64,000 bases of DNA from Opitutia bacterium Tous-C4FEB (lineage in GTDB: Bacteria > Verrucomicrobiota > Verrucomicrobiia > Opitutales > Opitutaceae), in the NCBI GenBank assembly GCA_002304445.1, contig NEVA01000004.1, positions 124,001 to 188,000 of the forward strand, read 5' to 3'. The notes under the pieces were generated by a model. The model did no database searches, had not been told where the DNA came from, and saw only the letters and a program-made list of their open reading frames with translations. Shown here in pieces: positions 1,097 through 32,200 of the stretch (position 1 is the first letter of the stretch; the number at the start of each line of letters is the position of its first letter). Both the position numbers and the translations under genes were made by a program.

Positions 1097-1212
1097 GGGA
1101 AATTTCTGCGTTACGAAGCGGGACAAAACCAAGAGTTACTCAACAATGCCAGTAAAGTCGTTTTTGCTATGCCATCACCCCGATGTCTTGGTCCATCCTC
1201 CCCATCCAGCCC

Positions 1213-3963: not shown

Positions 3964-3964
3964 G

Positions 3965-4038
3965 CGGCAGAAAAAAGCGTCGCCCGATCCTGTTTTTAAA
4001 GTTCCTTTTGTAAGCTCTCCCAACCCCCAAACCTTATC
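3965..4038 (+). promoter_or_regulatory. Leader of TonB receptor copy 2, similar to the leader of copy 3
   Basis: This 75-nt gap and the gap before copy 3 (about 6830-6898) share an A-rich run, then TCGCCCGA followed by TCC or CCC, then a T-rich tract and a pyrimidine-rich end just before the ATG. The conserved block lies at about 3980-3990 here and 6845-6855 in the other leader. It may be duplicated together with the genes, or may be a kept regulatory element. Confidence 0.35.
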
Positions 4039-6807: not shown

Positions 6808-6898
6808 CGCAGCGTCCGGGCGGTTCTGAGTGAAGGAAAAATAATCGCCCGACCCTTTTGAAAAGTCTCTTTCTTATGCTTTAATAAGCCCCACCCCC

Positions 6899-9670: not shown

Positions 9671-9683
9671 CCGAATTCTTTTT

Positions 9684-11012: not shown

Positions 11013-11059
11013 TTTTCGCCCGGTAGTTTTCCTTTCCCCAAACCCTCGAACCCAGATCC

Positions 11060-14973: not shown

Positions 14974-15005
14974 TCTGGCGCGGTCGTCCTGCCTCTCCAT
15001 TTTTT

Positions 15006-16529
15006 ATGAAATCGTTCCTCCATCTGATGCTTTGCCTTGCCGCGGTGGGCCTCGCCCGTGCCGCCGATTCCTCGCCGGCCCGCCCTAACGTTCTCTTCAT
15101 CGCCGTCGATGACCTCCGGCCCGAGTTCGGTGCTTATGGCGCGAGTTACGTGAAGTCGCCCAATTTGGATCGCATCGCGAAAGCCGGGATCACGTTTTAC
15201 CGCGCTTATTGCCAACAAGCCGTCTGCTCGCCCACGCGCTCGAGCCTCATGACGGGCACCCGGCCCGACACGACCAAGGTCTGGGACCTCGAAACCCATT
15301 TTCGCGCCGCTCTGCCCAACGTCGTCACGCTCGGCCAGCATTTCAAAAACCACGGCTATTTCGTCCAAGGTATGGGCAAGATCTATCATGGCAGTCTCGA
15401 CGACGCTCCCACGTGGTCCGTGCCTTGGCAGTCCTCCCGCGGCCAAGCCTACGGCCTCCCTGAGAACCTCGCACTCAATAACCGCCAATCCGCCGCCCCT
15501 GCGGTCGCCGGCGGCTCCGGCAAGAAATCGGGAAAGAAAAAGCAGGAGCCGACTCCCCGCAATTCCCGCGGCCCCGCTTTTGAGGGCGCCGATGTGCCTG
15601 ACGACACCTTTACCGACGGCCAAAATGCCAAGCTCGCCGTCGCCACCCTCGGCTTGATGGCGAAGCAGCAGCAGCCCTTTTTTCTCGCGCTCGGTTTTTC
15701 CAAACCCCACCTGCCGTTTGTCGCTCCGAAAAAATACTGGGACCTTTATGATCCCGCGAAAATCCAGCTCGCCCCGAATAAATTTCGTCCGAAGGACGCG
15801 CCCGACTACGCGATCCAGCCCGGCGGTGAGCTCCGCAACTATCACGGCATTCCCGAAGGCTCGATCCCGGACGACCTCGCCCGCCAACTGAAGCACGGCT
15901 ACTACGCCGCCATCTCCTACATGGATGCCCAGCTCGGCCTCGTGCTCGACGAACTCGACCGTCTCGACCTAGCCAAAAATACGATCGTGGTCCTTTGGGG
16001 CGACCACGGCTGGAAACTCGGCGAGCACGACGCGTGGTGCAAACACAGCAATGCCGAAAACGACACCAACGGCGCGCTGCTTCTCTCTGTTCCCGGCATG
16101 AAACACGCCGGCGCCAAAGCGACCGGGCTTGTCGAGTTCGTCGACATCTATCCGACGCTCGCCGAGCTCGCCGGTCTGCCGCTCCCCGCCCACCTCGAGG
16201 GCCTCAGTTTCAAGCCGGTCCTCGACCATCCCACCCGCCCCTGGAAGCCGGCGGCCTTCAGCCAATATCCCCGCCCGGGCAACTCGGCTACCGGCGGTAT
16301 TCCGCTCATGGGTTATTCCATGCGCACGGAGCGCTATCGCTTCACCGTCTGGCTGCATCGCGACGACCCCGGCAAAGTCGCGGACATCGAGCTCTACGAC
16401 CACCAGACCGATCCGCAGGAGAATCTCAACGTCGCCAAGAGCCCCGCCCATCGTGAACTGCTCGAGCAACTCATGGCTCAATGGCGCGGAGGTTGGCAGG
16501 GCGCACAACGCGCGATCACCAAGTCCTGA
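15006..16529 (+). CDS. Iduronate-2-sulfatase-like secreted sulfatase (S1_7-like)
   Basis: A 507-residue Cys-type sulfatase with a signal peptide ending near ARAA. PNVLFIAVDDLRPEFGAYG and the CSPTR motif (Cys74) followed by MTGTRPDTTKVWDLE closely follow the pattern of iduronate-2-sulfatase. LWGDHGWKLGEH carries the second set of metal ligands. A Lys-rich low-complexity insert at about residues 168-182 (GKKSGKKKQ) interrupts the domain and is probably a surface loop. Family knowledge suggests removal of a 2-O-sulfate from a terminal uronic acid; related enzymes also occur in algal-glycan loci. It lies 32 nt after the lyase gene and 12 nt before another sulfatase of the same type. Confidence 0.88.
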   Translation: MKSFLHLMLCLAAVGLARAADSSPARPNVLFIAVDDLRPEFGAYGASYVKSPNLDRIAKAGITFYRAYCQQAVCSPTRSSLMTGTRPDTTKVWDLETHFRAALPNVVTLGQHFKNHGYFVQGMGKIYHGSLDDAPTWSVPWQSSRGQAYGLPENLALNNRQSAAPAVAGGSGKKSGKKKQEPTPRNSRGPAFEGADVPDDTFTDGQNAKLAVATLGLMAKQQQPFFLALGFSKPHLPFVAPKKYWDLYDPAKIQLAPNKFRPKDAPDYAIQPGGELRNYHGIPEGSIPDDLARQLKHGYYAAISYMDAQLGLVLDELDRLDLAKNTIVVLWGDHGWKLGEHDAWCKHSNAENDTNGALLLSVPGMKHAGAKATGLVEFVDIYPTLAELAGLPLPAHLEGLSFKPVLDHPTRPWKPAAFSQYPRPGNSATGGIPLMGYSMRTERYRFTVWLHRDDPGKVADIELYDHQTDPQENLNVAKSPAHRELLEQLMAQWRGGWQGAQRAITKS

Positions 16530-16541
16530 CGCCGAACCGCC

Positions 16542-18011
16542 ATGACTCAGACCTCTGCTTTTCGGGCCGGCGCGTTTGCCGCGTGTGTTGTGGGGTGGGC
16601 CGCCGGAGTCTTCGCGGCCGCGCCCGCCGTGGGCCCGAAGTCGCCCAACGTGCTGTTCATCGTCGTCGACGATCTGAACCTCGCGCTCGGCTGCTACGGC
16701 GACCCCGTGGCGCAGACGCCCCAGATCGACCGGCTGGCCGCGCGTGGGGTGCGATTCGACCGCGCGTATGCGCAGTATCCGCTTTGTAATCCGAGCCGGG
16801 TTTCCTTTTTGAGCGGACGGCGCCCGGAGACGAGCGGCGTGTACATCCTGACCACACCGGCGCGCACCGCGTTGCCCGATGCGGTCATGTTGCCGCAGTT
16901 CTTTAGGCAGCAAGGCTACCTCAGCGCCGGAGCGGGAAAAATCTTCCACAACGCGAAGGTGAACGACGAAGCGTCGTGGGATTCCTACGACGATCGGCCG
17001 GCGAGCGATCCGGATGAAATTGCGGCGATCGAGGCACGATACGGCTCTGCCGGAAAACCCGGCGACGGTCGGCCGGCGTTTCATGTTTTGTCCAGCGATG
17101 GTGCGGGCACGCGGGATGGGCGCAACGTCCGGACGATCCTTCGGCTCATGGCGGAGCAACACGCGACCGGGAGACCGTTCTTTTTGGCCGCAGGGTTGCA
17201 CCTGCCGCACTTGCCGTGGACCGCGCCGAAGAAATTTTTCGACCTGTATCCGCCGGGCAGCCTGACCCCGAAACCCGAGCCCGCGATGGTGGACGTGCCG
17301 CCCATCGCGTTGCAGACGGAGCTCTCGGGTTTCGCCCAGCCCGATTCGCGAGAGGCGGCGATGCGCGGTTACTACGCGAGTGTGTCGTTCACCGATGCCC
17401 ACGTCGGCATGTTGCTGGATGGGCTCGACCGGCTTGATCTTTGGAAAACGACTGTCGTGGTGCTCATCAGCGACCACGGGTTTCATCTGGGCGACCACGG
17501 GGGACTCTGGGCAAAACTGAGCGCGTTCGACGCCGCGACGCGCGTGCCGATGGTCGTGGCCGGGGCGGGAGTCCCGGCGGGCAAGGTGGTGGCCGAGCCG
17601 GTGGAGTTGCTCGACGTCTTCCCCACCTTGGTCGAACTCGGCGGCTTTGCTCCGCTGCCGGGCTTGGAAGGCCGCTCGCTCGTGGCCGCGATGCGGGGTC
17701 GGCCGCCGACCGGCTTCCGGCCGGCGTCGAGTATGGTTTATCATTACGATCAGGCGAAAAAGAGCGATGTGCTCGGCCGCACGGTGATCGCGGCAGAGTG
17801 GCGCTACACCGAGTGGGCCGGCGGTGCAGCCGGTCGGGAACTCTACTGGCGCGCCGACGACCCCATGGAGTATCGTAATCGCGCAGGAGACCCGAAGCTC
17901 GTCGCCGCGCTCAACGCCGGAGCGGCGTATCTCTTAAACGCCCCAAGTCCGAAGCCCGGCCCGGCCAACCGTCCCCGGGCTTTGCTCGAAGCGGCGCGGA
18001 AGAATCCCTGA
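16542..18011 (+). CDS. Second iduronate-2-sulfatase-like secreted sulfatase
   Basis: A 489-residue paralog of the preceding enzyme. It has a hydrophobic N-terminus to about residue 28, PNVLFIVVDDLNLALGCYG, and CNPSR with Cys82 as the formylglycine precursor. SGRRPETSGVY, the GKIFHN segment and LISDHGFHLGDHGG follow. The overall length and motif order match the iduronate-2-sulfatase group. Having two members of one subfamily beside a lyase suggests that two different sulfated positions or chain contexts are processed in turn. It is the last gene of the run; the next gene is 200 nt away behind a palindromic regulatory region. Confidence 0.88.
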   Translation: MTQTSAFRAGAFAACVVGWAAGVFAAAPAVGPKSPNVLFIVVDDLNLALGCYGDPVAQTPQIDRLAARGVRFDRAYAQYPLCNPSRVSFLSGRRPETSGVYILTTPARTALPDAVMLPQFFRQQGYLSAGAGKIFHNAKVNDEASWDSYDDRPASDPDEIAAIEARYGSAGKPGDGRPAFHVLSSDGAGTRDGRNVRTILRLMAEQHATGRPFFLAAGLHLPHLPWTAPKKFFDLYPPGSLTPKPEPAMVDVPPIALQTELSGFAQPDSREAAMRGYYASVSFTDAHVGMLLDGLDRLDLWKTTVVVLISDHGFHLGDHGGLWAKLSAFDAATRVPMVVAGAGVPAGKVVAEPVELLDVFPTLVELGGFAPLPGLEGRSLVAAMRGRPPTGFRPASSMVYHYDQAKKSDVLGRTVIAAEWRYTEWAGGAAGRELYWRADDPMEYRNRAGDPKLVAALNAGAAYLLNAPSPKPGPANRPRALLEAARKNP

Positions 18012-18225: not shown

Positions 18226-21144
18226 ATGAACGCCGCCACCATGCCCAACCTCCGCCCAACCTCTGACCGGTCCTTCGCCCGATCTTTTTCCACGCTGATT
18301 ATCCTCGGCTCGCTGCTGGTCGCTCCGGCCTCGGCGCAGAGCGTCAACCCGAGCTCCCCAGCGAAGAGCCCGACTCCGGTCTCGGGCGCCGCCAACCTGG
18401 CCGGCGAGGTCCTCCAGCTCGAAACCTTCAACGTGTCGGGCTCGCTGATTGTCGGGGCCAGCACGTTTACTTCGCCCACTCCGGTGCTCGTGGTCGATCA
18501 AACCTCCCTGCTCGCCGCCGCGCCGATCAATCTCGCCGACGGTTTGAAACAACTGCCCTCCCTCGCTCCCGGTGGCGGCCAGACCGTCGGCGGTGGCACG
18601 GGCAACAACAGCGCCAATTTTCTGAACCTGCGGGGCCTCGGCGTCACGCGCACGCTGACGCTTCTGGACGGCCGCCGTTTCACCCCCAGCGGCCCGACCG
18701 GACAGGTTGACGTTAACCTGATGCCGCAAGGTCTGGTCGATCGGGTGGACGTCGTGAACGGTGGCGCCTCGGCCGCGTATGGTTCCGATGCCGTCGGCGG
18801 CGTCGTGAATTTCGTGCTCAACAAAGAATTTGTCGGCTTCAAGACCGACTTCCTCCTCGGTCAGTCGCAGAAGGGCGATAATCAGGAATATAAGGGTTCG
18901 GTCACCTTCGGGACCAAGTATCTCAATGGCCGCGGTCACCTCGTTTTCAGCGGCGAGTACGTGGAGAGCAAAGGCGTGAACGGCGACGGACGCGATTTCC
19001 GGCGCGAAGAAACCAACCAAATCCCCGAGCCGGGCAACACGACCAAGGTGATCCGCGTGGCGGACATCCGCTCGCCCTTCACGCCCGGCGGTAACATCGT
19101 GAACGGCGTCGGCGGCACCGCCGCCAACAACGCGCTCATCCGCGGGATCAAGTTCGGCCCCGGCGGCACGCAGAGCCCGTACGATTACGGCCGGTTCTCG
19201 ACCACCATCGGCACGGCGAACGGATTTCAGAGCGGCGGCGACGGTTTCCGGATCGGCACGGCCCAAGAGATCGTGCGTCCGCTCACGCGTAAAAATTTAT
19301 TCCTGCGAAACGATTTCAAGCTGCTCGAAAATTTCTCTTTCTTCGTCGAGGGCGGTTTCAGCGAAACGCAAATGAACCAGCAGAACAGCCCGACCACGCA
19401 TCTGCTCACGATCCGCAGCGACAACGCTTTTCTCAACCGGGCCGCGCCCGACTTGGTCGCGCGCATGGCTACGCTCGGTGTCACCTCGTTTACCATGAAC
19501 CGCTTGACGCTGGAGCGCGGACTGACGGTGTCCAAGGTCAATGACCAGAACCGGCGCGTGTTGGTGGGGTTCAACGCAAAAATCGGCGGCTGGGACTGGG
19601 AGACGTCGCTCCAATCGGGTACGAACGACATCAGTATTCCGATCGTCAACAATCTCATCACCGCGCGGATGGCGGTCGCCGCGGATGCGATTCTGGTCGG
19701 CGGCCAAATTGTGCCCCGCGCGGCGGCCGCCAATCCGGGGAGCGTGGCCTTCAATCCGTTCGGTGCCGGATCGCCCTCGGCCGCGGCCTTGGACTACGTT
19801 ATGGGCACCACTCGGTTTGAAGAAACTACCTCCCAAGATGTGATCGAATCGAAGGTTGCTGGAGAGGTTTTCGATTTGCCTGCCGGTCCCGTGGCGGTCG
19901 CCGCCGGGTTGCATTGGCGCAAACTCGAATCCACGACCACGACCGACGCGCTCTCGATCGCCGGCGCCTACCGATTGGCGAACAACCAACCGTTTACGGG
20001 CAACTATACGATCATGGAGGAGTTCGCCGAAACGCAGATTCCGCTGCTGAAGGATCTGCCGCTCGTGAAGAAGCTGACGGCCAGCCTGGCTTTCCGGCAC
20101 GCGGATTACTCGACCAGTGGTGATGCCAACTCTTGGAAGGCCGGCGCGGTCTGGCAGCTCAACGCCGATCTGCGCCTCCGCGCCTCGCGCTCCCGTGATA
20201 TTCGGGCGCCCAACATCAACGAGCTCTTCTCCGCCGGCCGTCAGACCAACGGCAACATCTCCGACAATTTCGCCGGCGGCACGGGCCTGACCTTTCAGGG
20301 CGTGCCCAACATCAACAGTGGCAATCCCAATCTGAAACCCGAGGTGGCCGACTCGACCGTCGTCGGCTTTGTTTACCAACCGATGTGGCTGAAAGGTGCG
20401 AGTTTCGCCGTGGATTTTTACACCACGGAGATTGCCGACGCGATTTTCGTGGCGGGCGGACAAAACGCCGTGCGCGAGTGTTCGATCAACCCGTCGTCGC
20501 CGCTCTGCTCCTTCGTGACGCGCGGCCCGACCTCGGCCAGCCCACGGGCGATCATCCAGACGCGGACCTCCTCGGTTAATCTCAACTCCGAGTTTTCGCG
20601 CGGGGTGGATTTCGAGGCCAGTTACCGGATTCCGCTTAACACGTGGTTTGCCGCCGTGCGTCCCGGCAATCTTACCGTGCGCGCGATCGCCGGTTACATC
20701 GATGAGTATTCCCGCGTATCGCCTCTCACTCCGACCCAAATCAACTTGGCCGGCAACGGTATCGCGAATCCCGGATCGGGCACTTCGGCGTTGCCACGCA
20801 TCCGGGGCAACCTCTCGCTGAGTCACTCGCGCAACGCCTTCTCCAGCTTCCTCCAGATGCGCTACATCGGCCGGATGACATGGGACAAGACGCGCGTTCT
20901 GGGCGTGACCACCGATTACAACGCCGTGCCTTCGACCGCGTATTTCGACGGCCAATTGACCTACCGGTTGCCCAAGATTCGCCAAGGCTGGGAGTCGGAA
21001 GTTTATTTGAACGTCGCCAATCTCCTCGACCGAGACCCCACCTACGCACCCCGCGCCGGCGGCGCCACGCCGCTCCCCACCGATCCCGGCCTATTTGACC
21101 AAGTCGGCCGGATTTTCCGACTCGGGCTGAGGACGAAGTTCTGA
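18226..21144 (+). CDS. TonB-dependent receptor of the vitamin-B12/omptin-like 'Gly-rich plug' subfamily
   Basis: About 972 residues. An N-region with a clear signal peptide ends near ASAQS, followed by a TonB-box-like VLQLETFNVSGS. The plug contains LNLRGLGVTRTLTLLDGRR and VDVVNGGASAAYGSDAVGGV, typical of receptors unlike those in the first locus. The barrel ends LGLRTKF. I chose the ATG at 18226; an upstream in-frame TTG at 18205 is less likely. An extracellular-loop-like segment RECSINPSSPLCSF holds two Cys that could form a disulfide, notable because a DsbA-like gene begins 8 nt after the stop. Substrate unknown; the downstream genes hint at small carboxylates or their conjugates. Confidence 0.9.
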   Translation: MNAATMPNLRPTSDRSFARSFSTLIILGSLLVAPASAQSVNPSSPAKSPTPVSGAANLAGEVLQLETFNVSGSLIVGASTFTSPTPVLVVDQTSLLAAAPINLADGLKQLPSLAPGGGQTVGGGTGNNSANFLNLRGLGVTRTLTLLDGRRFTPSGPTGQVDVNLMPQGLVDRVDVVNGGASAAYGSDAVGGVVNFVLNKEFVGFKTDFLLGQSQKGDNQEYKGSVTFGTKYLNGRGHLVFSGEYVESKGVNGDGRDFRREETNQIPEPGNTTKVIRVADIRSPFTPGGNIVNGVGGTAANNALIRGIKFGPGGTQSPYDYGRFSTTIGTANGFQSGGDGFRIGTAQEIVRPLTRKNLFLRNDFKLLENFSFFVEGGFSETQMNQQNSPTTHLLTIRSDNAFLNRAAPDLVARMATLGVTSFTMNRLTLERGLTVSKVNDQNRRVLVGFNAKIGGWDWETSLQSGTNDISIPIVNNLITARMAVAADAILVGGQIVPRAAAANPGSVAFNPFGAGSPSAAALDYVMGTTRFEETTSQDVIESKVAGEVFDLPAGPVAVAAGLHWRKLESTTTTDALSIAGAYRLANNQPFTGNYTIMEEFAETQIPLLKDLPLVKKLTASLAFRHADYSTSGDANSWKAGAVWQLNADLRLRASRSRDIRAPNINELFSAGRQTNGNISDNFAGGTGLTFQGVPNINSGNPNLKPEVADSTVVGFVYQPMWLKGASFAVDFYTTEIADAIFVAGGQNAVRECSINPSSPLCSFVTRGPTSASPRAIIQTRTSSVNLNSEFSRGVDFEASYRIPLNTWFAAVRPGNLTVRAIAGYIDEYSRVSPLTPTQINLAGNGIANPGSGTSALPRIRGNLSLSHSRNAFSSFLQMRYIGRMTWDKTRVLGVTTDYNAVPSTAYFDGQLTYRLPKIRQGWESEVYLNVANLLDRDPTYAPRAGGATPLPTDPGLFDQVGRIFRLGLRTKF

Positions 21145-21152
21145 GGTTTCCC

Positions 21153-21806
21153 ATGGTGCGGCGGTTTTTGCTGCTTTGGCTTCTGGCCGGCCTCGGTATC
21201 GGCGCGGCGAGCGCGGCCGAAGCGGCCAGCCCTGAGCCGGACCCGAGGCTCGGGCCGGCGTTTGCCCGCCGGGAACGTCCTGTTCTGGGTTCGGCGACCG
21301 CCCCGATCGTGGTGATCGAAGTTTCGAGTTTCAGGTGCGCCCACTGCCGGGACTTTCATGAGAGAATCTTCCCGGTGCTGCGGAGCCGTTACGTGGACAC
21401 GGGAAAAGTGCAGTGGGTCGTGCTCAATGCTTCCGATGACCCGTCAGAACAGTTCGCGCCGATTTTCCAAGTCGCGCGGTGCGCCTTGCGGCAGGAAAAG
21501 TATTGGGAGGTGAAAGAGCGACTCTTCGAAGCGGCCGGTCGGCCGTTCAGTTTTGTGGCTAATTTAGTCAAAAAAAGCCCGCAGATTGAAGGGGGGGCTT
21601 TGGACCAATGTCTGGGTGAACGCGGCGTGCGTAACGCGGTGGCTGCCGATTTCGCCGAGTATGCGCGGCTCAAGGTTCAAGGGACGCCGACCTTCCTGAT
21701 CCGAAAGACCGGGGCCGATGGCCGGGTGGTGGAGACCACGATTGCGGGTGCCCAGACGCTGGACTATTTCCAGCGCGTAGTGGATGAATTGCTGAAGACC
21801 CCCTGA
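21153..21806 (+). CDS. DsbA/thioredoxin-fold periplasmic thiol:disulfide oxidoreductase
   Basis: A 217-residue exported protein with a signal peptide of about 22 residues. The thioredoxin-fold domain has a CAHC active site (Cys62, Cys65) in IEVSSFRCAHCRDFHE and the cis-proline loop GTPTFLI (Pro179), as in the DsbA/DSBA_oxidoreductase_4 group. It would form or rearrange disulfides in exported proteins. It starts 8 nt after the TonB receptor and is followed after 2 nt by a 59-codon gene and then a MauE-like gene, a plausible membrane partner for its re-oxidation. Two further Cys (110 and 153) could be structural. The partner relation is inferred from the operon. Confidence 0.87.
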   Translation: MVRRFLLLWLLAGLGIGAASAAEAASPEPDPRLGPAFARRERPVLGSATAPIVVIEVSSFRCAHCRDFHERIFPVLRSRYVDTGKVQWVVLNASDDPSEQFAPIFQVARCALRQEKYWEVKERLFEAAGRPFSFVANLVKKSPQIEGGALDQCLGERGVRNAVAADFAEYARLKVQGTPTFLIRKTGADGRVVETTIAGAQTLDYFQRVVDELLKTP

Positions 21807-21808
21807 CC

Positions 21809-21988
21809 ATGCGCCGAGTCGCCGACTCCCTTTTTCCAGCCTTCCACGCGGTGCGGCCCGCGCGATTGTTGGCAGTGTTGGCGGTCGCGGGAGGAGTGGG
21901 CCTAGTTGGTGACTGGCTGCGCTCGGAGCAACGGCTCGTGTTTTCCCGGCCGCTTCCGGTCTTTAGAATCGTGGAGCCGTCGCGATGA
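21809..21988 (+). CDS. 59-residue single-span membrane peptide, translationally coupled
   Basis: This short open frame lies between the DsbA-like and MauE-like genes. Its ATG comes 2 nt after the upstream stop, and its TGA overlaps the next ATG in ATGA. The product has a basic N-terminus (MRR), one hydrophobic span (about residues 20-35, LLAVLAVAGGVGLVGDWL) and a short Arg-containing tail, with no Cys. The tight coupling on both sides and the absence of internal stops support a real gene. I recognise no family. It may help assembly of the MauE-like protein or join it to the oxidoreductase. Confidence 0.6.
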   Translation: MRRVADSLFPAFHAVRPARLLAVLAVAGGVGLVGDWLRSEQRLVFSRPLPVFRIVEPSR

Positions 21989-22446
21989 CCCCAAGTGCCT
22001 GCTCCAGTCGCAGCCGCGAGGTTTATATACGCTGGTTGCTGGGTGCGGTTTTGGTCGCAGCCGGCGGTTTCAAAGCGGCACACCCCGTGGAGTTTCACGC
22101 CGATTTGGTGGCCTATGGGATCGGCTTACCCGATGCGTGGCTACGAGGAACCGCCATGATGTTGCCTTGGCTCGAAGTGCTCGCCGGCGTCGCTCTCGGC
22201 GTGGACTTCTGGCCGGAGACGATCCGTTTCGTAGTCGTGGGCTTGAGCGCGGTTTTTGTGGTGGTGTTGGCTCAGGCCATGATGCGTGGACTGGAGGTGC
22301 GCTGCGGGTGTTTTGGCCCGCTGACGCCCGGCTGGTTTAACGAACCGTGGTTCGCGCTTGGACGCGCCGTCGGGTTGCTCGCCGCCTCGATTTGGCTGTG
22401 GCTGAAACGGGTGCCGTCGGTCGCGGGGCCCGTGCTCAACGCCTAA
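21985..22446 (+). CDS. MauE/DoxX-like redox membrane protein
   Basis: A 153-residue integral membrane protein with about four hydrophobic spans (roughly 16-33, 55-75, 80-100, 124-141). It carries the MauE-type signature LEVRCGCFG, with Cys107 and Cys109 after the third span. In methylamine-dehydrogenase clusters MauE acts with MauD in disulfide formation; the family is distantly related to DoxX and VKOR-type proteins. Here it overlaps the 59-codon gene by ATGA and lies just after a DsbA-like protein. The likely role is re-oxidising that protein using the respiratory chain. No methylamine dehydrogenase is present. Confidence 0.8.
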   Translation: MTPSACSSRSREVYIRWLLGAVLVAAGGFKAAHPVEFHADLVAYGIGLPDAWLRGTAMMLPWLEVLAGVALGVDFWPETIRFVVVGLSAVFVVVLAQAMMRGLEVRCGCFGPLTPGWFNEPWFALGRAVGLLAASIWLWLKRVPSVAGPVLNA

Positions 22447-22464
22447 CGGCCAACGCTCCCCACG

Positions 22465-23715
22465 ATGCCTCCGTCAAATTCGGTCTTTTTTCTTCGTCGG
22501 CTCTCTCTGGCCCAGTGGATGTTGTTCGCGGCGGGCGGTGGCGTGGTTTTTGGATTAGCGGCCCCGGAGCTCGCCGTGCATCTGAAGTTCATCAGCGATA
22601 TTTTTCTCCGGCTGATTCGGGCAATTATCGCTCCGGTGCTTTTCGGCGTGTTGGTGCGGGCGGTCGGCGGGGTGGGGGGAATGAAGGACTTGGGCCGCTT
22701 GGGTTGGAAGTCGCTGGTCTTCTTTGAGGTCGCGACGACTCTCGCGCTGCTGCTCGGGTGGTTTACCGCGGCGATTTTTCGGCCGGGCGACAACGTCGCG
22801 CTCGCCGCTCAGGCGGCGCCGGTGGTTTCAAAAATGACGTTTACCGATGTGCTCGTGAACGCCTTTCCGACCAGCATCGTGGATGCGATGGCGCGGGGCG
22901 ATGTGCTGCAGATCGTGGTGTTCTGTTTCCTGTTCGGCGTGGCCTGCCTCGCGGTGGGAGAGCGGGCGAAGCCCGTGCTGGTGCTGGCCGATGCCGTGGT
23001 GGCGGTCGCGTTTCGGTTTACGCAGATCATCATGTACCTCGCGCCGGCGGCGGTTTTTGCCGCCATGGCGGGAACGGTGGCGACCAGCGGGGTGGGGGTT
23101 CTGCTCGGGTTGGCCCGGCTGTTTGGGGCGGCTTGGGGAGCAGAACTGTTGTTCCTCGCGGTGGTTTTCGGCGGCTCACTCGTGGCGAGCGGAGTGCCGA
23201 TGCGGCGGTTCGTGCATTTCGTGAGGGAGCCGTTCCTGATCGCGTTCAGCACGACGTCGAGCGCGGCGGCTCTGCCCCAGACTCTGGAAAACATGGAGCG
23301 TTTCGGCGTGCCCAATCGGATTCTCGGGGTGGTGGCTCCGCTGAGTCTCAGCCTGAACCTATGTGGCAGCACCCTCTTTCTCGGACTTGCGACGCTGTTT
23401 GTCGCGCAGGCGGCCAACGTTCCGCTCTCGTTCGACCAACAGCTTTTGATTTTGCTCACCCTTAAGCTGACCAGCAAGGGCGTCGCGGGTATTCCACGGG
23501 CCAATTTCGTCGTGCTCACGGCCTTGTTTCAGAGCTTCGGTCTCCCGCTTGAAGGCCTCGGTCTGCTGCTCGGCATCGATGCGTTGATCGATCCGATCCG
23601 GACCAGTGTGAATGTTGTCGGCCATTGCACCGCACCCGCCGTGGTGGCGCGCTGGGAGGGCGTGACGTTTCCGAAAGACCTCGAGCCCGTGCCGACCATG
23701 GCACCGCCGTCTTAA
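22465..23715 (+). CDS. Dicarboxylate/amino acid:cation symporter (SDF/DAACS family)
   Basis: A 416-residue inner-membrane carrier of the GltP/DctA type. It has multiple hydrophobic helices, the serine-rich hairpin FSTTSSAAALPQTLENME and the helix-8 region GSTLFLGLATLFVAQ that form the substrate and cation site. It should import C4-dicarboxylates or acidic amino acids with sodium or protons. It begins 18 nt after the MauE-like gene and precedes matB, which suggests the imported acid feeds a CoA-activation step. Substrate specificity cannot be read with confidence. Confidence 0.9.
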   Translation: MPPSNSVFFLRRLSLAQWMLFAAGGGVVFGLAAPELAVHLKFISDIFLRLIRAIIAPVLFGVLVRAVGGVGGMKDLGRLGWKSLVFFEVATTLALLLGWFTAAIFRPGDNVALAAQAAPVVSKMTFTDVLVNAFPTSIVDAMARGDVLQIVVFCFLFGVACLAVGERAKPVLVLADAVVAVAFRFTQIIMYLAPAAVFAAMAGTVATSGVGVLLGLARLFGAAWGAELLFLAVVFGGSLVASGVPMRRFVHFVREPFLIAFSTTSSAAALPQTLENMERFGVPNRILGVVAPLSLSLNLCGSTLFLGLATLFVAQAANVPLSFDQQLLILLTLKLTSKGVAGIPRANFVVLTALFQSFGLPLEGLGLLLGIDALIDPIRTSVNVVGHCTAPAVVARWEGVTFPKDLEPVPTMAPPS

Positions 23716-23735
23716 GGCCTCGCGTTTCATCTTCT

Positions 23736-25208
23736 ATGTCCCTGTTGCCCCTCTTCGACAATTCCCTCCTGCAACGCGCGGCCCAGCCCGCGCTTGAAAT
23801 CGAGACCGCGCCCGGGTCTTTGGCCTGCTATACCTTTGGCGATCTTGAAGTGCGCAGCAATCGGCTCGCGCACCTTTTGCGCGCGCGGGGTTTACAGCCG
23901 GGAGATCGGCTCGCGTTTTTTTTGCAGAACCGGATTGAGGTGATCGATCTCTGGCTCGCCGGAACCAAGCTCGGCCTGATCATCGTGCCGATCAACGTGC
24001 TCTACCGGGAACGCGAGCTGACGCACATCGTGCGGGACGCTGCGCCCACTGCGGTGGTGACCTCGCGCGAGTTGGCCGGGCTTATTCCCAGCGATGTGGC
24101 GATCTGGGAGGTGGACGGATTGACGGCCGAGGCGGCGGCGCAGCCGGGCGCGCGGATTTCGGTCCCGGCCGATGCGGATACGCCGATGGCGCTCATCTAC
24201 ACGTCGGGCACGACCGGGGCGTCGAAGGGCGCGGTGCTCACGCAGGGTAATTTTGCGACCAACGGTCTCACCCTCGTCACGGCCTGGGCGATCACGTCGG
24301 CCGATCGCTACCTTGCGACGCTGCCACTCTTTCACGTGCACGGTTTGGCGAACGGACTGCACTGCTGGCTCTTCAGCGGTTGCCACCTGCGTCTGACCGA
24401 GCGTTTCGAACACGCTAAGGCCGCCCAATGGTTCGACGAGTATCGGCCGTCGCTCTTTTTTGGCGTGCCCGCGATGTTCATCCGGCTGCTGGAGCTCCCG
24501 CCCGAAGTCGCGCGGCAGATCGGCTCGCGCCTGCGGTTGGCGGTTTCCGGGTCGGCGCCGTTGCCGGCCGAGGTGCATGAGAAATTCAGACTGCTCTACG
24601 GCTCGGTGATTCTGGAACGCTACGGGATGACCGAGACGTTGATGAATATCGGCAACCCCTACGCTGGCGAGCGTCGCCCTGGCACGGTCGGTCTGCCGCT
24701 CGCGCACGTGGCGGTGCGCATCTGCGACGAGGCCAACGCCGTGGTCCCCGACGGCACGACGGGCGAGGTCTGGGTGAAAGGTCCGAACGTGTGCGCCGGC
24801 TATTGGCGGCGCCCCGACGCGACGGCGGCGGCGTGGAGTGCCGGTTGGTTTCGCACGGGCGACATCGGGGTGCGCGCCGCCGACGGCTACGTTACCCTGC
24901 AGGGCCGGCGCAGCGATCTGATCATCTCCGGCGGTTTCAATATCTACCCGCGGGAAATCGAGGAGCTGATCCTCGAACAGCCCGGCGTGCGGGAAGCGAC
25001 GGTCGTCGGCGTGCCCGATGCGGTGCGCGGCGAGGTGCCCGTGGCCTATGTGGTGGTCGATAATGCGGGGTTCGACGAGGCGGCGACGGTCGCGGTGTTG
25101 CGCTCTCAATTTGCCTCGTTCAAGCAGCCGAAGAAGTTTGTGCGGGTGCCGGCCTTGCCGCGCACGGCGTTGGGCAAGGTGCAGAAACATCTCCTGCCCG
25201 CCCCATGA
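23736..25208 (+). CDS. matB: Malonyl-CoA synthetase (MatB-like acyl-CoA ligase)
   Basis: A 490-residue AMP-binding enzyme. It has the P-loop-like YTSGTTGASKGAVL, the adenylate-binding ERYGMTETLMNI and GERRPGTVGLPL, the GWFRTGDIGV hinge region and the C-terminal lysine motif PRTALGKVQKHLL. The combination NPY-GERRPGTVG after the YGMTET motif is characteristic of MatB, which makes malonyl-CoA (or methylmalonyl-CoA) from the free acid, ATP and CoA. The start at 23736 follows the upstream stop by 20 nt. It overlaps the MatC-like gene by ATGA. No malonyl-CoA decarboxylase lies next to it, so the fate of the CoA ester may be biosynthetic. Confidence 0.82.
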   Translation: MSLLPLFDNSLLQRAAQPALEIETAPGSLACYTFGDLEVRSNRLAHLLRARGLQPGDRLAFFLQNRIEVIDLWLAGTKLGLIIVPINVLYRERELTHIVRDAAPTAVVTSRELAGLIPSDVAIWEVDGLTAEAAAQPGARISVPADADTPMALIYTSGTTGASKGAVLTQGNFATNGLTLVTAWAITSADRYLATLPLFHVHGLANGLHCWLFSGCHLRLTERFEHAKAAQWFDEYRPSLFFGVPAMFIRLLELPPEVARQIGSRLRLAVSGSAPLPAEVHEKFRLLYGSVILERYGMTETLMNIGNPYAGERRPGTVGLPLAHVAVRICDEANAVVPDGTTGEVWVKGPNVCAGYWRRPDATAAAWSAGWFRTGDIGVRAADGYVTLQGRRSDLIISGGFNIYPREIEELILEQPGVREATVVGVPDAVRGEVPVAYVVVDNAGFDEAATVAVLRSQFASFKQPKKFVRVPALPRTALGKVQKHLLPAP

Positions 25209-26446
25209 GCCCGGCCGTCATGTCGTTGGTCGCGCTGGCCGTGGTGATCGGCTTCAGCCTGACCGCCCGGATCAACATCGGGGTGCTCGCGGTTGCGCTG
25301 GCGTGGCCGATCGCGGTTTTCGCGGCCGGGTGGAAAGCGGAGGCCTTGCTCGCGGCGTTTCCTTCCAGCCTGTTTCTCACCCTCGTGGGCGTGACGCTGC
25401 TGTTTGGCGTGGTGCAACGAAACGGCACGTTGGAGGCGCTGGCCCGGCGGGCGGTGCGGCTTTGCGGGGGGCGCGCGGCGTTGTTGCCGGTGGTATTTTT
25501 TTTGATGGCCGGGGTGCTCTCATCCATCGGACCGGGAGCGATCGCGGCGACCGCGCTGATCGCGCCGCTCGCGATGGGCATTGGGCATCGGGCCGGCGTG
25601 TCGGCATTTCTGACCGCCCTGATGGTCGCCAACGGCGCCAATGCGGGAAACCTGTCGCCGATCAGTTCGGTGGGTCTGATCATGCATACGCAGATGCAAA
25701 AAGCCGGTCTCCCGGGACACGACTGGCAGGTGTTCGCGGCGGCCTTTGTAGCCCACGCCGTCGTGGCGCTGGCCGCTTACTTTTTGTTCGGCGGCCTCAA
25801 GCTGTTCCGCGCGGGCCGCGGTCCGGTCGGGGAACGGCCGCCGGCGTTGACCGGCTCCCAATGGTTTTCGTTGGGCGTGCTGGCGGTCTGGATTGCGGCG
25901 GTCGTGTTTCTGCGGGTCAACCCCGGCCTCTCGGCGTTTGCCGCGGCGTCGGTGCTGATCGTGGCGGGTGCGCTCGACGACACGCGGGCGTTTGCGAGCA
26001 TTCCTTGGGCGGTGATCGTGACGGTGTCGGGCGTCAGCGTGTTGATCGCCGTGCTCGAAAAGACGGGCGGCATGGATCTGTTTACGACGTTGCTCGCCAA
26101 CGTGGCGACGCCGGCCACGGCCAACGGGACGATGGCGTTTTGCACGGGCATGATTTCGACCTACAGCTCGACTTCGGGCGTTGTGTATCCGGCGTTTATT
26201 CCCGCCGTGGCAGGCTTCGTCGAGAAGCTGGGCGGCGGCGATCCGCTGCAAGTTGCGCTGAGTATCGGGGTGGGCGCCATGATCGTCGATGTCTCGCCGC
26301 TCTCGACGATCGGCGCGCTGGCCATCGCGGCCCGCCCCGAGGGCGAGAATGAACGTGCGCTGTTCCGAAAAATGCTGCTTTGGGGCTTTGCCATGACGGT
26401 GGTCGGTGCGCTGTTCTGTCAGTTCTTCATCCGCTTTTTTGTATGA
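25205..26446 (+). CDS. MatC-like dicarboxylate/malonate carrier
   Basis: A 413-residue membrane protein with about ten hydrophobic segments, of the anion-transporter-like group with a MatC N-terminal-type domain. GANAGNLSPISSVGLI and the second-half counterpart STSGVVYPAF form the two inverted-repeat substrate loops. It begins inside the stop of matB (ATGA), a pairing that in rhizobia supports malonate uptake. It ends with another ATGA overlap onto the SGNH hydrolase gene. Malonate is the most likely substrate given matB; other dicarboxylates remain possible. Confidence 0.8.
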   Translation: MSPAVMSLVALAVVIGFSLTARINIGVLAVALAWPIAVFAAGWKAEALLAAFPSSLFLTLVGVTLLFGVVQRNGTLEALARRAVRLCGGRAALLPVVFFLMAGVLSSIGPGAIAATALIAPLAMGIGHRAGVSAFLTALMVANGANAGNLSPISSVGLIMHTQMQKAGLPGHDWQVFAAAFVAHAVVALAAYFLFGGLKLFRAGRGPVGERPPALTGSQWFSLGVLAVWIAAVVFLRVNPGLSAFAAASVLIVAGALDDTRAFASIPWAVIVTVSGVSVLIAVLEKTGGMDLFTTLLANVATPATANGTMAFCTGMISTYSSTSGVVYPAFIPAVAGFVEKLGGGDPLQVALSIGVGAMIVDVSPLSTIGALAIAARPEGENERALFRKMLLWGFAMTVVGALFCQFFIRFFV

Positions 26447-27168
26447 AAAAAATCCTGCTCCTGCTCTCGTTTTGCTGCGCCGTGACTTCGGGTTGGGCGG
26501 CGGAAATCCTTTCGCCGGCCGAGGAAGCCGCCAAACGCTGGAAGCAGTATCAACCTGCTTTCGACGCTTTCGCCGAACAGGACCGCGTGACTCCTTTTGC
26601 CCCCGGCGGCATCGTTTTTGTCGGCAGCAGCATCTTTCGGCAGTGGACCACGGTGCCGGAGCAGATGGCGCCCTTGCCGGTGTTGAACCGGGCGTTTGGC
26701 GGATCGCGCACGGGTGACCAGCTCGCGCGGTTCGACCAAGTCGTCACACCATATGCGCCCAAGGTCATCGTCTATTATTGCGGCAGCAACGACCTCAAGG
26801 CCGGTGCGGTGGCCGAGGACCCGGCGGCGATTTTTGCGCGGTTTCGGGCCTTCTCGGAGCGGGTGCAGGCGACTTTGCCGCAGACGCGGATCATTTTTGT
26901 CTCCAGCACGCGGTCGCCGGATCGGGTGGGCCGTTGGGAGCAGGTCGATCATTACAACGCGCTGGCCCGTGCGTATTGCGCCGCGACGCCGCATCGTTTT
27001 TTTGTCGATATCAACCCGGCGCTGGTCGATGCGTCCGGCCATCCGCGGCTCGATCTCTACAAAGAGGACAAACTGCATTTTCATCCGCCGTCCTACGTCG
27101 AGTTTGCCCGGGTGATCCGGCCGGTGTTGGAGCAGGTTTGGGCCGAAGTGAGCCGTTCGGCCAAGTAA
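26443..27168 (+). CDS. Secreted SGNH/GDSL-family hydrolase
   Basis: A 241-residue protein with a signal peptide (about 20 residues) and the four SGNH blocks: nucleophile Ser62 in VGSSIF, Gly in FGGSR, Asn116 in CGSNDL, and the Asp209/His212 pair in DKLHFH. Family members are esterases or acetylhydrolases. As the last gene of a receptor/dicarboxylate operon, overlapping the carrier gene by ATGA, it could release an ester-linked acid (for example from a malonylated or acetylated glycoside) that the transporters then take up. That link is inference. Confidence 0.85.
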   Translation: MKKILLLLSFCCAVTSGWAAEILSPAEEAAKRWKQYQPAFDAFAEQDRVTPFAPGGIVFVGSSIFRQWTTVPEQMAPLPVLNRAFGGSRTGDQLARFDQVVTPYAPKVIVYYCGSNDLKAGAVAEDPAAIFARFRAFSERVQATLPQTRIIFVSSTRSPDRVGRWEQVDHYNALARAYCAATPHRFFVDINPALVDASGHPRLDLYKEDKLHFHPPSYVEFARVIRPVLEQVWAEVSRSAK

Positions 27169-28238: not shown

Positions 28239-30275
28239 CTACTTGGCTTCGACGCGGAGGATGCCCTTCATCAGGGCGGCGTGGCCGGGGAAGCTGCAGA
28301 TGTAGTCGTAGTCGCCCGGGGTGCTCGGCGCGATGAAGTAGATTGTGTCGCTGGTCTCGGGTTGGACGACGCTCGTGTGAAAAAGAACGTCGGCGGAATC
28401 GGGCACGTAACTCTTGGCGGCGCCGTCGAGGCCGAGGGCGAGCGCGGCGGCGCCCACGTCCTGGCCTTTGCCGGGGGCGCAGAGGACGAAGTTATGCAGC
28501 ATGTCGTCGGTGTTTTTGAAGATAAGTCGGATGCGCGTGCCGGCTTTGACGGTGAGCAAGGTCTGGTCGAACTTCAGGCCGGGTTGGGTGCCGAGGAGAA
28601 ACTGTCGGTCGCCCTCGCTGTTGGGCCAATCGGTGGGCTGCTTGATCGGGTGTTTGGCGGTGTGCCCGAGGGCGACGGCGGAAACGGCGGCGGCGCAAAT
28701 CTCGGCGGCGTTGGGCTCGATGGGAATGATACGATCGCCGGGAGCGAACCGGTTGAGCGTGTAATACGCGATCGGGTGGAGGACGGCGTCGCCCCCGGTG
28801 GCGGCGCGCACGCCGGAGGCCTTGATCTCGTGGATGTAGCCCTCGCGCAGGCAGACGGCGGCGAGGCGCACGCTGAGACCGTCGGGTGCGACGACCACTT
28901 TGCGCACGGGGCACGCGAGGCGGTCGATCGGCGCGGCGCCATAGGCGGCGTGATAGTTGTAGGTGAAACCGGCGATGCTGTAGCTCGCGGGATTCCCGGC
29001 GGTCGCGCGGTCGACGGGCGCGGTGAACGTGAGCAGAAAACCATCGGGCTGGGCCTTGATTTCTTTGATCTCGAGCGGGGTCGCGCCGGTCCACGTCACG
29101 CGTTCGATGCCGTATTGTTTCGGGCCGACGGAGCCCCAACCGCGGGCGGTTTCGCCGACAAACATCGTGGCGTTCTCGCCGAATTCCATGCGCAGAATGC
29201 CGCTGTCGAAACCCTCGCGGAAGGCGTAGGCCGCGCCCTGCCAGACGCCCTGCACCTGCTCGAGGGAGACGCGCATGAGTTTGCTCTGGCCCTGGTCGCC
29301 GATGAAAAACTGGCCGCCGAACGGCCCGAATTTTCCACCGGTGCGATCTTCGATCATGGCGGAGTTGGAGATGCCCAGCACGGCGTGCGGCAACCAGACG
29401 GCGGGGGCTTTCAAGCCGGGGAGTTTCTTGGCGACAACGTGCATGGGTTGCTCGAAGTCGGAGATATGCTCGGGGCGAACCGACACGGTCGAGCCGGGCA
29501 GTTTGGACCACGTGAGGCCGGCGGGATGGCCGATGAAGTCGCCGGATTCGATGTGGGTGATTTTACCGGAACCGACCCACTCGCCCTGATTGTCGGTGGT
29601 GAACCAAGCGCCTTGGGAACTGACGGCGAATCCGGCGGGCGAGCGCAGGCCGGCGGCGATGGGCGAGAGCTGGCCGTCGGGCGTGATCTCGACCATCCAG
29701 CCGCGCCAAGGCACAGGGGCCTGCGTGGCTCCGCCAAAGGCGACGTTGAGGGTGACGCGCAGGTTGCCGTTGGGCGCGAGCACCGGGCCGAAGGCGTATT
29801 CGTGGTAGCTGCCGGAGATGGGGAATTTCGCGACGGTTTCAAACACGTCGGCGCGCCCGTCACCGTCGGTGTCGACGAGGCGGGTGAGCTCCTGGCGCTG
29901 GGCGACGTAGAACCCGCCCTTGGGTGCCGCGATGATCCCGAGCGGTTCGTGGAGGCCTTGGGCAAAAAGGGAATAGCGCGGCTTAGGCTCGGCGTCGTAA
30001 GCGCCGTCGATCCACCAGACCTCGCCGCGGCGGGTGGTGACGAGCAGGCGCGCCGGGGCGACGGCGACGATACCGCTGACCTCGAGCACGATGGCGTCGG
30101 GCACGGGGAGCGGGGTGCGTTGCCAATAGCGACTCTCGGCGGCGGTGAGCGCTTCGGAAGGCTTGATGAAGCGTTCGGCGGCGGAGGGGTTGTTGGTCTG
30201 CGCGAATGCGAAGAACGGAACGGCGAAGCCGGCGAGAACCGAGAACGTGAGCGGAAAAGAGAGGGGGCGCTTCAT
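28239..30275 (-). CDS. Exported sugar-dehydrogenase-like beta-propeller with C-terminal cupredoxin
   Basis: About 678 residues with a signal peptide ending near FAFAQ. Residues ~50-420 resemble the glucose/sorbosone-dehydrogenase / 'membrane-bound dehydrogenase' propeller (RLVDTDGDGRADVFE, QFFIGDQGQSKLMRV). A linker beta-domain follows, then a plastocyanin/azurin-like domain with a full type-1 copper set: His594 in MLHNF, Cys660, His665 and Met669 in CSFPGHAALM. No CxxCH haem motif is seen. The copper domain could pass electrons from sugar oxidation to the respiratory chain. I chose the ATG at 30275, which gives a clean signal peptide and leaves 8 nt to the upstream gene. Enzyme activity is inferred. 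Confidence 0.8.
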   Translation of the reverse strand: MKRPLSFPLTFSVLAGFAVPFFAFAQTNNPSAAERFIKPSEALTAAESRYWQRTPLPVPDAIVLEVSGIVAVAPARLLVTTRRGEVWWIDGAYDAEPKPRYSLFAQGLHEPLGIIAAPKGGFYVAQRQELTRLVDTDGDGRADVFETVAKFPISGSYHEYAFGPVLAPNGNLRVTLNVAFGGATQAPVPWRGWMVEITPDGQLSPIAAGLRSPAGFAVSSQGAWFTTDNQGEWVGSGKITHIESGDFIGHPAGLTWSKLPGSTVSVRPEHISDFEQPMHVVAKKLPGLKAPAVWLPHAVLGISNSAMIEDRTGGKFGPFGGQFFIGDQGQSKLMRVSLEQVQGVWQGAAYAFREGFDSGILRMEFGENATMFVGETARGWGSVGPKQYGIERVTWTGATPLEIKEIKAQPDGFLLTFTAPVDRATAGNPASYSIAGFTYNYHAAYGAAPIDRLACPVRKVVVAPDGLSVRLAAVCLREGYIHEIKASGVRAATGGDAVLHPIAYYTLNRFAPGDRIIPIEPNAAEICAAAVSAVALGHTAKHPIKQPTDWPNSEGDRQFLLGTQPGLKFDQTLLTVKAGTRIRLIFKNTDDMLHNFVLCAPGKGQDVGAAALALGLDGAAKSYVPDSADVLFHTSVVQPETSDTIYFIAPSTPGDYDYICSFPGHAALMKGILRVEAK

Positions 30276-30283
30276 GGGGAAAA

Positions 30284-32110
30284 TTACCAAACGAGCGAAT
30301 ACGTGAGGGTGCGGTCGACCTTGCCGCCGGAGATGGGAATGGTGACTTGCTGGCGGCCTTGGCGCGTGCGAACGGTGGGTTTCAAGGCGCTATCCTTCGG
30401 CAGATCGACGTAGTAGGCGCGGTCGCCGACGATCCAGCCGCGGCCGTCGGGTTGCGGAGTGATGGTCGCGGCCTCGGCGAGAAGTATATGGGTTTCCCAC
30501 GAGGTGTTGCGACCGACGAGGGTGAGGGTGCGGGTGAGGCTGCGGCCGTCGGCGGCGGGGGTAATCCGATCGCGGATGGAGAGATCGCCGAGTTTGCTGA
30601 GAAACGTCGGCGAGCCGTCGGCCGCGAGTGTGTAGCCCTGCGAAGACCAAAGGGCATCGGGGGTGTCGGGCCAATCGTAGGCGGAGCGTTCGAGGAGGGC
30701 GACGGTGGGTTTTGCGTTGAGGGTAAGGGCGGGGCCGGCGGGTTCGGCGAGTTGGGGTTCGCCGCGGCCTTCCCACATGTCGACGGTGTCGAGGAAGGCT
30801 CCGCGCCAAGCGCGGAGAAGGGTGCCGGCCTCGAGGTCGTAGGCGTAGTGCGCGCCGCCGGGGGAGCCGACGCTAAGGGCGTAGAGGCGCTTTTTAGGCT
30901 CGAAGGGAACGAAACCGCGTTGAAGGCGCGGGCGGTCGGTGGGTTCGATGAGCAGGGTTTTTTTGACCGGTGCTTTGGCGGCGGGGTCAACGTAGGTGAG
31001 CGACTGCGGCGCGAGGCTGACCCCGCGGACGCCGATCTTGAGCGACGGGCGGCCGCTGCGGGCTTGGCGGTAGTCGAGTTGGAACGGGTGGTCGCCGGCC
31101 GGCAACGTGAGGGTGCGGCCGTCGCCGCCCAGCTCGAGCGGGGAGATCGCGGTCTCGCCGGCGATGAGGAGGCGGGCGGGGTTACGGGTCTCGGTGGTGA
31201 ACGTGTAGGTGTCGGCGCGGGCGAGGTGGATCGTGCCCTTGATCACCAAGGCGGACTTGCCGGATTTCTCCATGGGCAGAAGGCTGAGGGCGTCCAAGGT
31301 ACCGGTCGCAGTCGGCGGCGTGGAGTAATCGCCGAGGCCATTTTTTTCACCGGTGCGGAGTTCATAGGTGAGGCCGGAGGTGGTGACGGGCGGAGTGTCG
31401 AAACGGAGGGCGGAGAGGCGGCGGATCGCGATCGGGCCATGGTCGCCCTGAATCATGATGGGGCCGCGGGAAGCCTCGGGTCCGGTTTCAAAGAGCGCGC
31501 TGCGGGTCGGGCCGGTGACCTCGACGTTTTCGTGGATCAGAAAATCGTTGAGGAGGACCCGGACGAACTTGGCGTTGGCGATTTTTTTGCCGTCGGCATC
31601 AAAGCGCGGGGCGCGAAATTCTACCCGAAGATTTTGCCAAAGGCCGGGCGCGCGGGAGGCGTTGGCGCGGGGCGCGAAGCCGTCGTAGCTCTCCTTGCCC
31701 TTGCCGCGGGCGGCGTCCCAGCGGTGATAGATGGCGCCGCAGTCGATGTCTTGCGGAACCTTTTTCCCCCAGCTGTCGAAGAGCTGAATCTCGTAGCGAC
31801 CCATGAGGTAGACACCGGAGTTGGAGCCGGGGGTGAGCAGGAAATCGAGTTCGAGCTCGAGATCGCCATGGTCCCAGGCGGTGACGAGGTGGGCGCGGTT
31901 TTCCTTGGTGGTATTGTTGACGAGGATGCCGTCGCCCGGGAGTCCGATGAGTTTCTTTTCGATGCGCGGATCGCCCCCGAGGCCGGATGCGACCTGCCAA
32001 TTTGCGCCGAGCGGTTTGAAATCGTCGGCGACCGAAGGCCGCGGCGTTTGGGCCGGGAGACTGCAAGCGAGGAAGAGGCCGGCGACCAGGCTGAGGGATG
32101 AAATCTTCAT
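30284..32110 (-). CDS. Secreted DUF1080 / 3-keto-disaccharide hydrolase domain protein
   Basis: A 608-residue exported protein with a signal peptide ending near SLPAQ. The N-terminal DUF1080 domain (about 28-230) is a concanavalin-like fold with SGVYLMGRYEIQLFDSWGK and AIYHRWDAARGKG. A PA14-like beta-domain follows (about 240-370), then a C-terminal region of unknown fold. DUF1080 proteins include 3-keto-glycoside hydrolases that cleave sugars oxidised at C3. The next gene, 8 nt downstream, encodes a copper-domain sugar-dehydrogenase-like protein, so oxidation and then cleavage of the keto-sugar outside the cytoplasm is plausible. Confidence 0.8.
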   Translation of the reverse strand: MKISSLSLVAGLFLACSLPAQTPRPSVADDFKPLGANWQVASGLGGDPRIEKKLIGLPGDGILVNNTTKENRAHLVTAWDHGDLELELDFLLTPGSNSGVYLMGRYEIQLFDSWGKKVPQDIDCGAIYHRWDAARGKGKESYDGFAPRANASRAPGLWQNLRVEFRAPRFDADGKKIANAKFVRVLLNDFLIHENVEVTGPTRSALFETGPEASRGPIMIQGDHGPIAIRRLSALRFDTPPVTTSGLTYELRTGEKNGLGDYSTPPTATGTLDALSLLPMEKSGKSALVIKGTIHLARADTYTFTTETRNPARLLIAGETAISPLELGGDGRTLTLPAGDHPFQLDYRQARSGRPSLKIGVRGVSLAPQSLTYVDPAAKAPVKKTLLIEPTDRPRLQRGFVPFEPKKRLYALSVGSPGGAHYAYDLEAGTLLRAWRGAFLDTVDMWEGRGEPQLAEPAGPALTLNAKPTVALLERSAYDWPDTPDALWSSQGYTLAADGSPTFLSKLGDLSIRDRITPAADGRSLTRTLTLVGRNTSWETHILLAEAATITPQPDGRGWIVGDRAYYVDLPKDSALKPTVRTRQGRQQVTIPISGGKVDRTLTYSLVW

Positions 32111-32200
32111 GGGGAAAAGGGAGTAAACAAGGGGAACGAAGCGACGGCGCCGGGCAAACCTTTACCCGGAGACGTCGAAATTAAACACGAACGGTCGGTA

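Follow-up and report, generated by a model that had tools for sequence, protein, structure and literature searches.

Positions 18226-27168 of a 64,000-nucleotide stretch of DNA from Opitutia bacterium Tous-C4FEB (contig NEVA01000004.1, positions 124,001 to 188,000), which we analysed whole and refer to as the window, carry a plus-strand run of eight tightly packed genes. The contig is part of a 3.76-Mb genome assembly (G000). A sequence-only reading of this DNA had described the run and named its families, and the coordinates, the intergenic gaps (8, 2, -4, 18, 20, -4 and -4 nt, in order) and Pfam bear it out, each of the seven named families scoring over its gathering threshold. The first gene (18226-21144) encodes a 972-aa TonB-dependent receptor with a plug and a 22-strand barrel. 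Behind it lie genes for a DsbA-like thiol oxidoreductase of the Thioredoxin_4 family (21153-21806), which has a CAHC motif at residues 62-65 and a signal-peptide-like N-terminus; a 59-aa single-pass membrane peptide (21809-21988); a MauE-like membrane protein (21985-22446) with a CGC motif at residues 107-109; an SDF-family symporter (22465-23715); a MatB-like malonyl-CoA synthetase (23736-25208); a MatC-like malonate/dicarboxylate carrier (25205-26446); and a secreted SGNH/GDSL hydrolase (26443-27168). Our comparisons with related genomes link the thiol-redox genes to a cysteine pair in the receptor and the ligase and carrier to malonate.

Receptor cysteines and the DsbA-like gene

The mature window receptor contains exactly two cysteines, Cys 752 and Cys 761, nine residues apart (codons at 20479-20481 and 20506-20508 on the plus strand). 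A structure model of mean pLDDT 47.8, with barrel strands at about 65-86 and used for strand order only, has 22 strands and places the pair between strands 15 and 16. Together with the ortholog alignment, this strand count suggests a position in extracellular loop 8 (residues 738-788; 20437-20589), in agreement with the apparent extracellular loop read from the sequence earlier. The Pfam plug and barrel matches, the orthologs and the 22 strands of this low-confidence model identify the protein as a TonB-dependent receptor. Orthologs at E<=1e-150 occur in 26 of the 252 family genomes that formed our comparison set, which includes incomplete, metagenome-assembled genomes, and they fall in three genera. 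Discounting two fragments and one frameshifted copy leaves 23 readable orthologs, the window's included, and both cysteines are kept in 21 of them. In G126, G139 and G247 the receptor bears another pair with the same nine-residue spacing, at 497/506 in window numbering, which the window model puts in loop 4, between strands 7 and 8. Equivalence of the window pair to that of Cir and PirA was considered and rejected, as alignment puts the Cir/PirA pair in a different loop.

The DsbA-like protein matches Thioredoxin_4 at 87.1 bits (cut-off 23.2), is also recognised by Pfam DSBA, and has the CxxC motif and cis-proline of its class, with C62, C65 and P179 invariant across 13 sequences. Its nearest solved chains are 3f4r and BdbD, and DsbA chains are also among the nearest. 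The gene is found at E<=1e-20 in 28 of the 252 family genomes. Records with the same gene carry the labels Opitutaceae, Opitutae or Verrucomicrobiota, and many bear lake-type isolate names, such as Baikal-G3 or 'Opitutus sp. GAS368 isolate MiE-14oct19-218'. Distant relatives from other phyla (nine loci, 26-33% identity) showed no receptor in the flanks screened.

The cysteine pair and the DsbA gene occur together. For 119 receptor open reading frames (ORFs; 131 detected, minus 12 with <300 nt downstream and no DsbA), we counted cysteines in the C-terminal 65% of the receptor, other cuts shifting the counts by 1-3, and DsbA within 1.5 kb downstream. Pair and DsbA coincide in 24 ORFs, two have the pair only, two DsbA only and 91 neither, some of these last being short or doubtful; the corresponding Fisher value of 1e-20 is inflated by related rows and unusable as a probability. 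The frameshifted G243 receptor, split into two halves, accounts for both 'DsbA only' rows; the 'pair only' rows belong to G139 and G248, where DsbA lies farther downstream and is convergent, respectively. Within the window receptor type, all 21 readable orthologs with both cysteines have the DsbA gene, directly downstream in 20 cases and 3.4 kb downstream in G139 (Fisher, 20 versus 2: 0.004). Surveys of all Pfam-barrel receptors in single genomes found a pair in 1/51 (G000), 1/42 (G020) and 2/18 (G005), and all three receptors with an adjacent DsbA have one (Fisher 1.8e-5).

The two readable orthologs without the cysteines, in G173 and G180, come from assemblies that are 91 and 95% complete, in which searches for a DsbA of this family (E<=1e-20) and for Thioredoxin_4 or DSBA Pfam matches came back empty. 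In a maximum-likelihood tree G173 and G180 stand apart, and supported branches force two separate changes. G165 and G175 group with G180 and are also without DsbA; their receptor sequences stop short of the cysteines. Two orthologs of the window receptor have lost both cysteines independently, each in a genome without DsbA. Thirty receptors from four genomes without a DsbA match (those of 135 matches for which loci were given) yielded a single vicinal CC, and none had a spaced pair. Cys 113 and Cys 179 of the SGNH hydrolase, in turn, are kept in 7/7 genomes without DsbA. DsbA therefore tracks the receptor, not any cysteine-containing protein, and the hydrolase was rejected as a DsbA client since its cysteines do not follow DsbA presence.

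Six genomes (G103, G077, G005, G020, G248 and G221) have DsbA without the window receptor. In the first four, the gene directly upstream of DsbA encodes another receptor, with a close cysteine pair. These receptors are of three types, and their pairs occupy two loops: those of G005 and G020 fall in the same loop-8 region as the window pair, and that of G103 and G077 lies in another loop. In a model of the G005 receptor (mean pLDDT 71), which has 22 strands, Cys 539/546 lie between strands 15 and 16, and the best structural match is Cir; eight relatives of this receptor that occur without DsbA have zero cysteines in the counted part. The convergent neighbour of DsbA in G248 is a receptor holding three cysteines.

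The MauE-like protein belongs to its family by a Pfam MauE score of 69.4 bits (cut-off 27) and a CGC motif present in 14/14 copies. The 59-aa peptide had no Pfam or NCBIfam match; its N-terminus is basic, it contains a single hydrophobic stretch, and its C-terminal tail carries the conserved motif DW[LF]RxxQRLVFxRPLPxF. Thirteen further copies are present in receptor loci, and three divergent homologs (L139, L140 and L142) were detected at E values of 3e-15, 7e-7 and 2e-5, whereas the best-scoring of 729 other control peptides reached 0.17; on the strength of these copies and homologs, a spurious ORF was rejected. Peptide homologs also lie between DsbA and MauE in G221, G103 and G005, and the peptide therefore travels with the cassette across receptor types.

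Two gene blocks and the probable malonate genes

Conservation of gene order in related genomes, which the earlier reading had named as a check on the run, is found in G242, G246 and genus g26. G242 has the full eight-gene order (L072), and G246 agrees with it, split over two contigs (L073, L158). In genus g26, where MatB comes after SDF, three genomes (G067, G091 and G184) keep the order minus the peptide and MauE, and two more (G026 and G129) do so with MadL and MadM instead of MatC. Across the 25 other receptor loci, DsbA is present in 21, the peptide in 13, MauE in 13 and SDF in 16, and several loci without a module gene stop at a contig end. MatB-MatC-SGNH lies on a different contig from the receptor module in G018, G062 and G143, of the window's genus, and is likewise apart from the receptor in genus g7. 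The receptor-DsbA-peptide-MauE-SDF block, in turn, occurs without MatB behind it in five genomes of the window's genus. MatC orthologs at E<=1e-60 are present in 28/252 family genomes, followed by the SGNH hydrolase in 20 of the 28; the other eight are without SGNH or their contigs end first. Because each block recurs alone and the modules lie apart in several genomes, the run is, on this comparative evidence, best read as a fusion of two units that are each conserved separately. Module 1 comprises the TonB receptor, the DsbA-like protein, the 59-aa peptide, the MauE-like protein and usually the SDF symporter; module 2 comprises the MatB-like ligase, MatC and the secreted SGNH hydrolase.

The substrate of module 2 is indicated by its families and by an exchange of carriers. 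Pfam places the MatB-like protein among the AMP-binding ligases. The closest solved chain to it is the malonyl-CoA synthetase 4fuq (E 6.5e-101); NCBIfam PRK07514, malonyl-CoA synthase, gives 454.4 bits against a cut-off of 558, hence the name 'MatB-like'. The carrier scores 125.5 bits with MatC_N (cut-off 23). MatC's slot between MatB and SGNH is occupied in G026 and G129 (L078, L088) by MadL and MadM, which in G026 both exceed their NCBIfam equivalog cut-offs and in G129 are the same genes by clusters c29 and c30. Since two different malonate carriers occupy one slot, the ligase and carrier probably handle malonate. In L036 and L045, MatC adjoins a ligase only 38-42% identical to the window MatB. 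The hydrolase matches Lipase_GDSL_2 (57.2 bits, cut-off 32.9) and aligns at low identity to PAF acetylhydrolase chains.

The SDF symporter is less readily placed. It matches Pfam SDF at 349.6 bits, its nearest solved chain is an aspartate transporter, and it falls below the NCBIfam cut-offs for DctA (309.5 versus 513 bits) and GltP (262.8 versus 638). Two residues of the aspartate/glutamate pocket, an Asp and an Arg whose roles we presume from work on GltPh, are kept in 17/17 readable copies in our alignment. Cys and His stand where solved chains have Asp, the motifs NLCGS and GHC are invariant, and there is an additional Arg at the tip of the PRAN hairpin; possibly, these changes reflect lost sodium sites or a Cys/His site. 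With the aspartate/glutamate-pocket residues kept and the DctA score far under its cut-off, a role as dicarboxylate carrier is doubtful. The earlier proposal that the carriers and MatB take up and activate an acid thus gains from the exchange of MatC for MadLM as far as MatB, MatC and malonate are concerned, and is in doubt for the SDF protein.

Other genes adjoin module 1 in some relatives. Eight loci of genera g7 and g26 have a GntR regulator, an MFS carrier of aromatic-acid/sialate type and a secreted amidohydrolase directly upstream of the receptor, and in a ninth locus the same trio lies downstream of MauE (L034, L035, L079-L083, L085 and L091 in all). The amidohydrolase resembles 4-sulfomuconolactone hydrolase at a score below cut-off, and the trio may hint at a lactone or an aromatic acid as cargo. 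In the window itself, the plus strand at 1183-18011 encodes three tandem TonB receptor paralogs, another receptor, three sulfatases and a chondroitinase B-type protein, which together look like a sulfated-glycan locus. This cluster was rejected as part of the run on account of the 215-nt gap before the receptor and because, among the relatives, its sulfatases were observed upstream of the receptor in G242 and G246 only. Beyond the run, the minus strand at 28239-33310 encodes a cupredoxin-tailed protein, a 3-keto-disaccharide hydrolase-type protein and a glucuronoyl-esterase-like protein. A sigma-70 promoter scan of the run returned no site, and such a scan is uninformative for this phylum.

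A proposed dedicated oxidation cassette and its alternatives

We propose that the run joins two modules, one in which dedicated redox genes oxidise the receptor and one that uses malonate, and we consider this the probable explanation. The receptor would bear one disulfide in extracellular loop 8, formed in the periplasm during receptor assembly by the DsbA-like protein, which the MauE-like protein, aided by the 59-aa membrane peptide, would then re-oxidise. The SDF symporter may carry an acidic product over the inner membrane. In module 2, the SGNH hydrolase would release malonate from an ester, MatC (or MadLM) would import it and the MatB-like ligase would form malonyl-CoA. We infer oxidation over reduction, the parts given to MauE and the peptide, and the nature of cargo and ester, as well as any tie between the modules other than adjacency. 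That the redox genes serve the receptor, as had been suggested for this locus, receives strong comparative support from the co-occurrence of pair and DsbA, the two co-losses and the recurrence with other cysteine-bearing receptors, and oxidation of the receptor loop by DsbA is the best reading of this co-variation and has precedent. On a more general proposal we are evenly divided: that DsbA, the 59-aa peptide and MauE constitute a client-dedicated oxidative folding system for TonB receptors in Opitutaceae otherwise without a DsbA/VKOR pathway, that the peptide is a new membrane component coupling DsbA to MauE and the quinone pool, and that loop cysteines and cassette are gained or lost as a unit with different receptors.

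Several observations weigh against the two-module explanation. In G221, DsbA-peptide-MauE adjoins a TlpA-like double thioredoxin, and no cysteines are present in the nearest receptor. None of the six g26 loci with enough space for the peptide and MauE contains them, and neither follows DsbA in G020, so they may not always be needed or may be located elsewhere. G020 also has one further DSBA-Pfam match. Two receptors combine clustered cysteines with the lack of a DsbA neighbour: L207 (G000, C12:26052), with a C-x3-C pair at 208/212 of the ORF, in the plug, and L310 (G005), with a CGCC cluster at 708-711. Finally, the placement of the window pair relies on a receptor model of low confidence.

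The DsbA-like protein could instead be a general periplasmic oxidase that stands next to the receptor by chance or co-regulation and has it as one client among others. It is the only Thioredoxin_4 match in the window genome and the sole such match in 6/6 DsbA-bearing genomes tested (the additional DSBA match of G020 aside), VKOR was absent in 8/8 genomes searched, and G221 has DsbA without a cysteine-bearing receptor. A gene present in so small a part of the family would, however, be odd for a housekeeping enzyme, and a general role leaves its place beside cysteine-bearing receptors of several types, and its absence, twice, along with the receptor cysteines while those of the hydrolase stay, without ready explanation; we regard it as distinctly improbable. 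Less probable still, and in our view very unlikely, is an action of the thiol proteins on the cargo or on a redox switch in the loop: the receptor would bind a compound with a thiol or disulfide, or would gate its loop, and DsbA and MauE would serve as reductants. CxHC proteins are able to run in either direction, DsbA lies near the symporter in most loci, and in the symporter invariant Cys and His replace the Asp of solved relatives, but the cassette is common to different receptor types, and the nearest solved relatives of the DsbA-like protein include disulfide-forming enzymes. One shared cargo is also unlikely because the G005 receptor adjoins ABC genes that look, by eye, to be of heme or cobalamin type.

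The whole run might instead serve one substrate, along the lines of the sequence-only reading: the receptor would import a malonyl ester, SGNH would cut it, SDF and MatC would import the acids and MatB would activate malonate. The same order in two genera, the MadLM exchange, an SDF gene directly before MatB-MatC-SGNH in G081 and G165, and the other receptors that adjoin this module in several genomes are all consistent with such a pathway. The modules are nonetheless apart in G018, G062, G143 and genus g7, and the nine receptor loci with GntR, MFS and amidohydrolase genes are silent on malonate. We thus consider a single pathway unlikely, while the ties of redox genes to receptor and of ligase and carrier to malonate are supported by comparison.

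If dedicated oxidation of the receptor is correct, outer-membrane receptors bring their own disulfide machinery into bacteria without a general one, the loop disulfide is a transferable trait, and a conserved, unannotated micro-protein, the 59-aa peptide, acquires a role. It would also provide a clean system in which to study what a disulfide in loop 8 is needed for in a TonB receptor.

Comparison with known systems

A literature search on receptor-linked DsbA, with subscription papers mostly outside its reach, found nothing fitting, nor did a search on MauE and DsbA together. The components do have relatives. MauD and MauE function in the maturation of methylamine dehydrogenase, and there, as here, a MauE-family membrane protein is encoded with a thioredoxin-fold protein for one client; unlike that system, the run is without methylamine dehydrogenase genes and its thioredoxin-fold partner is DsbA-like. 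In uropathogenic E. coli and Salmonella, there is a DsbL/DsbI-arylsulfate sulfotransferase (ASST) tricistron in which an enzyme pair serves one client from one operon (PMC3526765). The window run likewise unites a DsbA-like enzyme, a membrane partner and a candidate client. It differs in that the client would be an outer-membrane TonB receptor rather than ASST, that the partner is of MauE type by its Pfam match, accompanied by the 59-aa peptide, rather than of DsbB type, and that the genomes checked here show little sign of another DsbA.

Oxidation of receptor loops by DsbA has been described in E. coli, where DsbA oxidises engineered cysteine pairs in the TonB receptors BtuB and FecA (PMC10288552). 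The window receptor resembles these, as well as the disulfide-bearing receptors Cir and PirA, which occur with a general DsbA, in having a cysteine pair in a loop, of a kind that DsbA can oxidise. The Cir and PirA pairs differ from it in aligning to another loop. To our knowledge, there is no receptor-linked DsbA in the Cir and PirA systems. Module 2 is comparable to MatABC and MadLM systems in combining a ligase with a MatC or MadLM carrier, and the exchange of one carrier for the other links this freshwater Opitutaceae block of ligase, carrier and SGNH hydrolase to malonate. It departs from those systems in being without a malonyl-CoA decarboxylase and in having added a secreted SGNH hydrolase.

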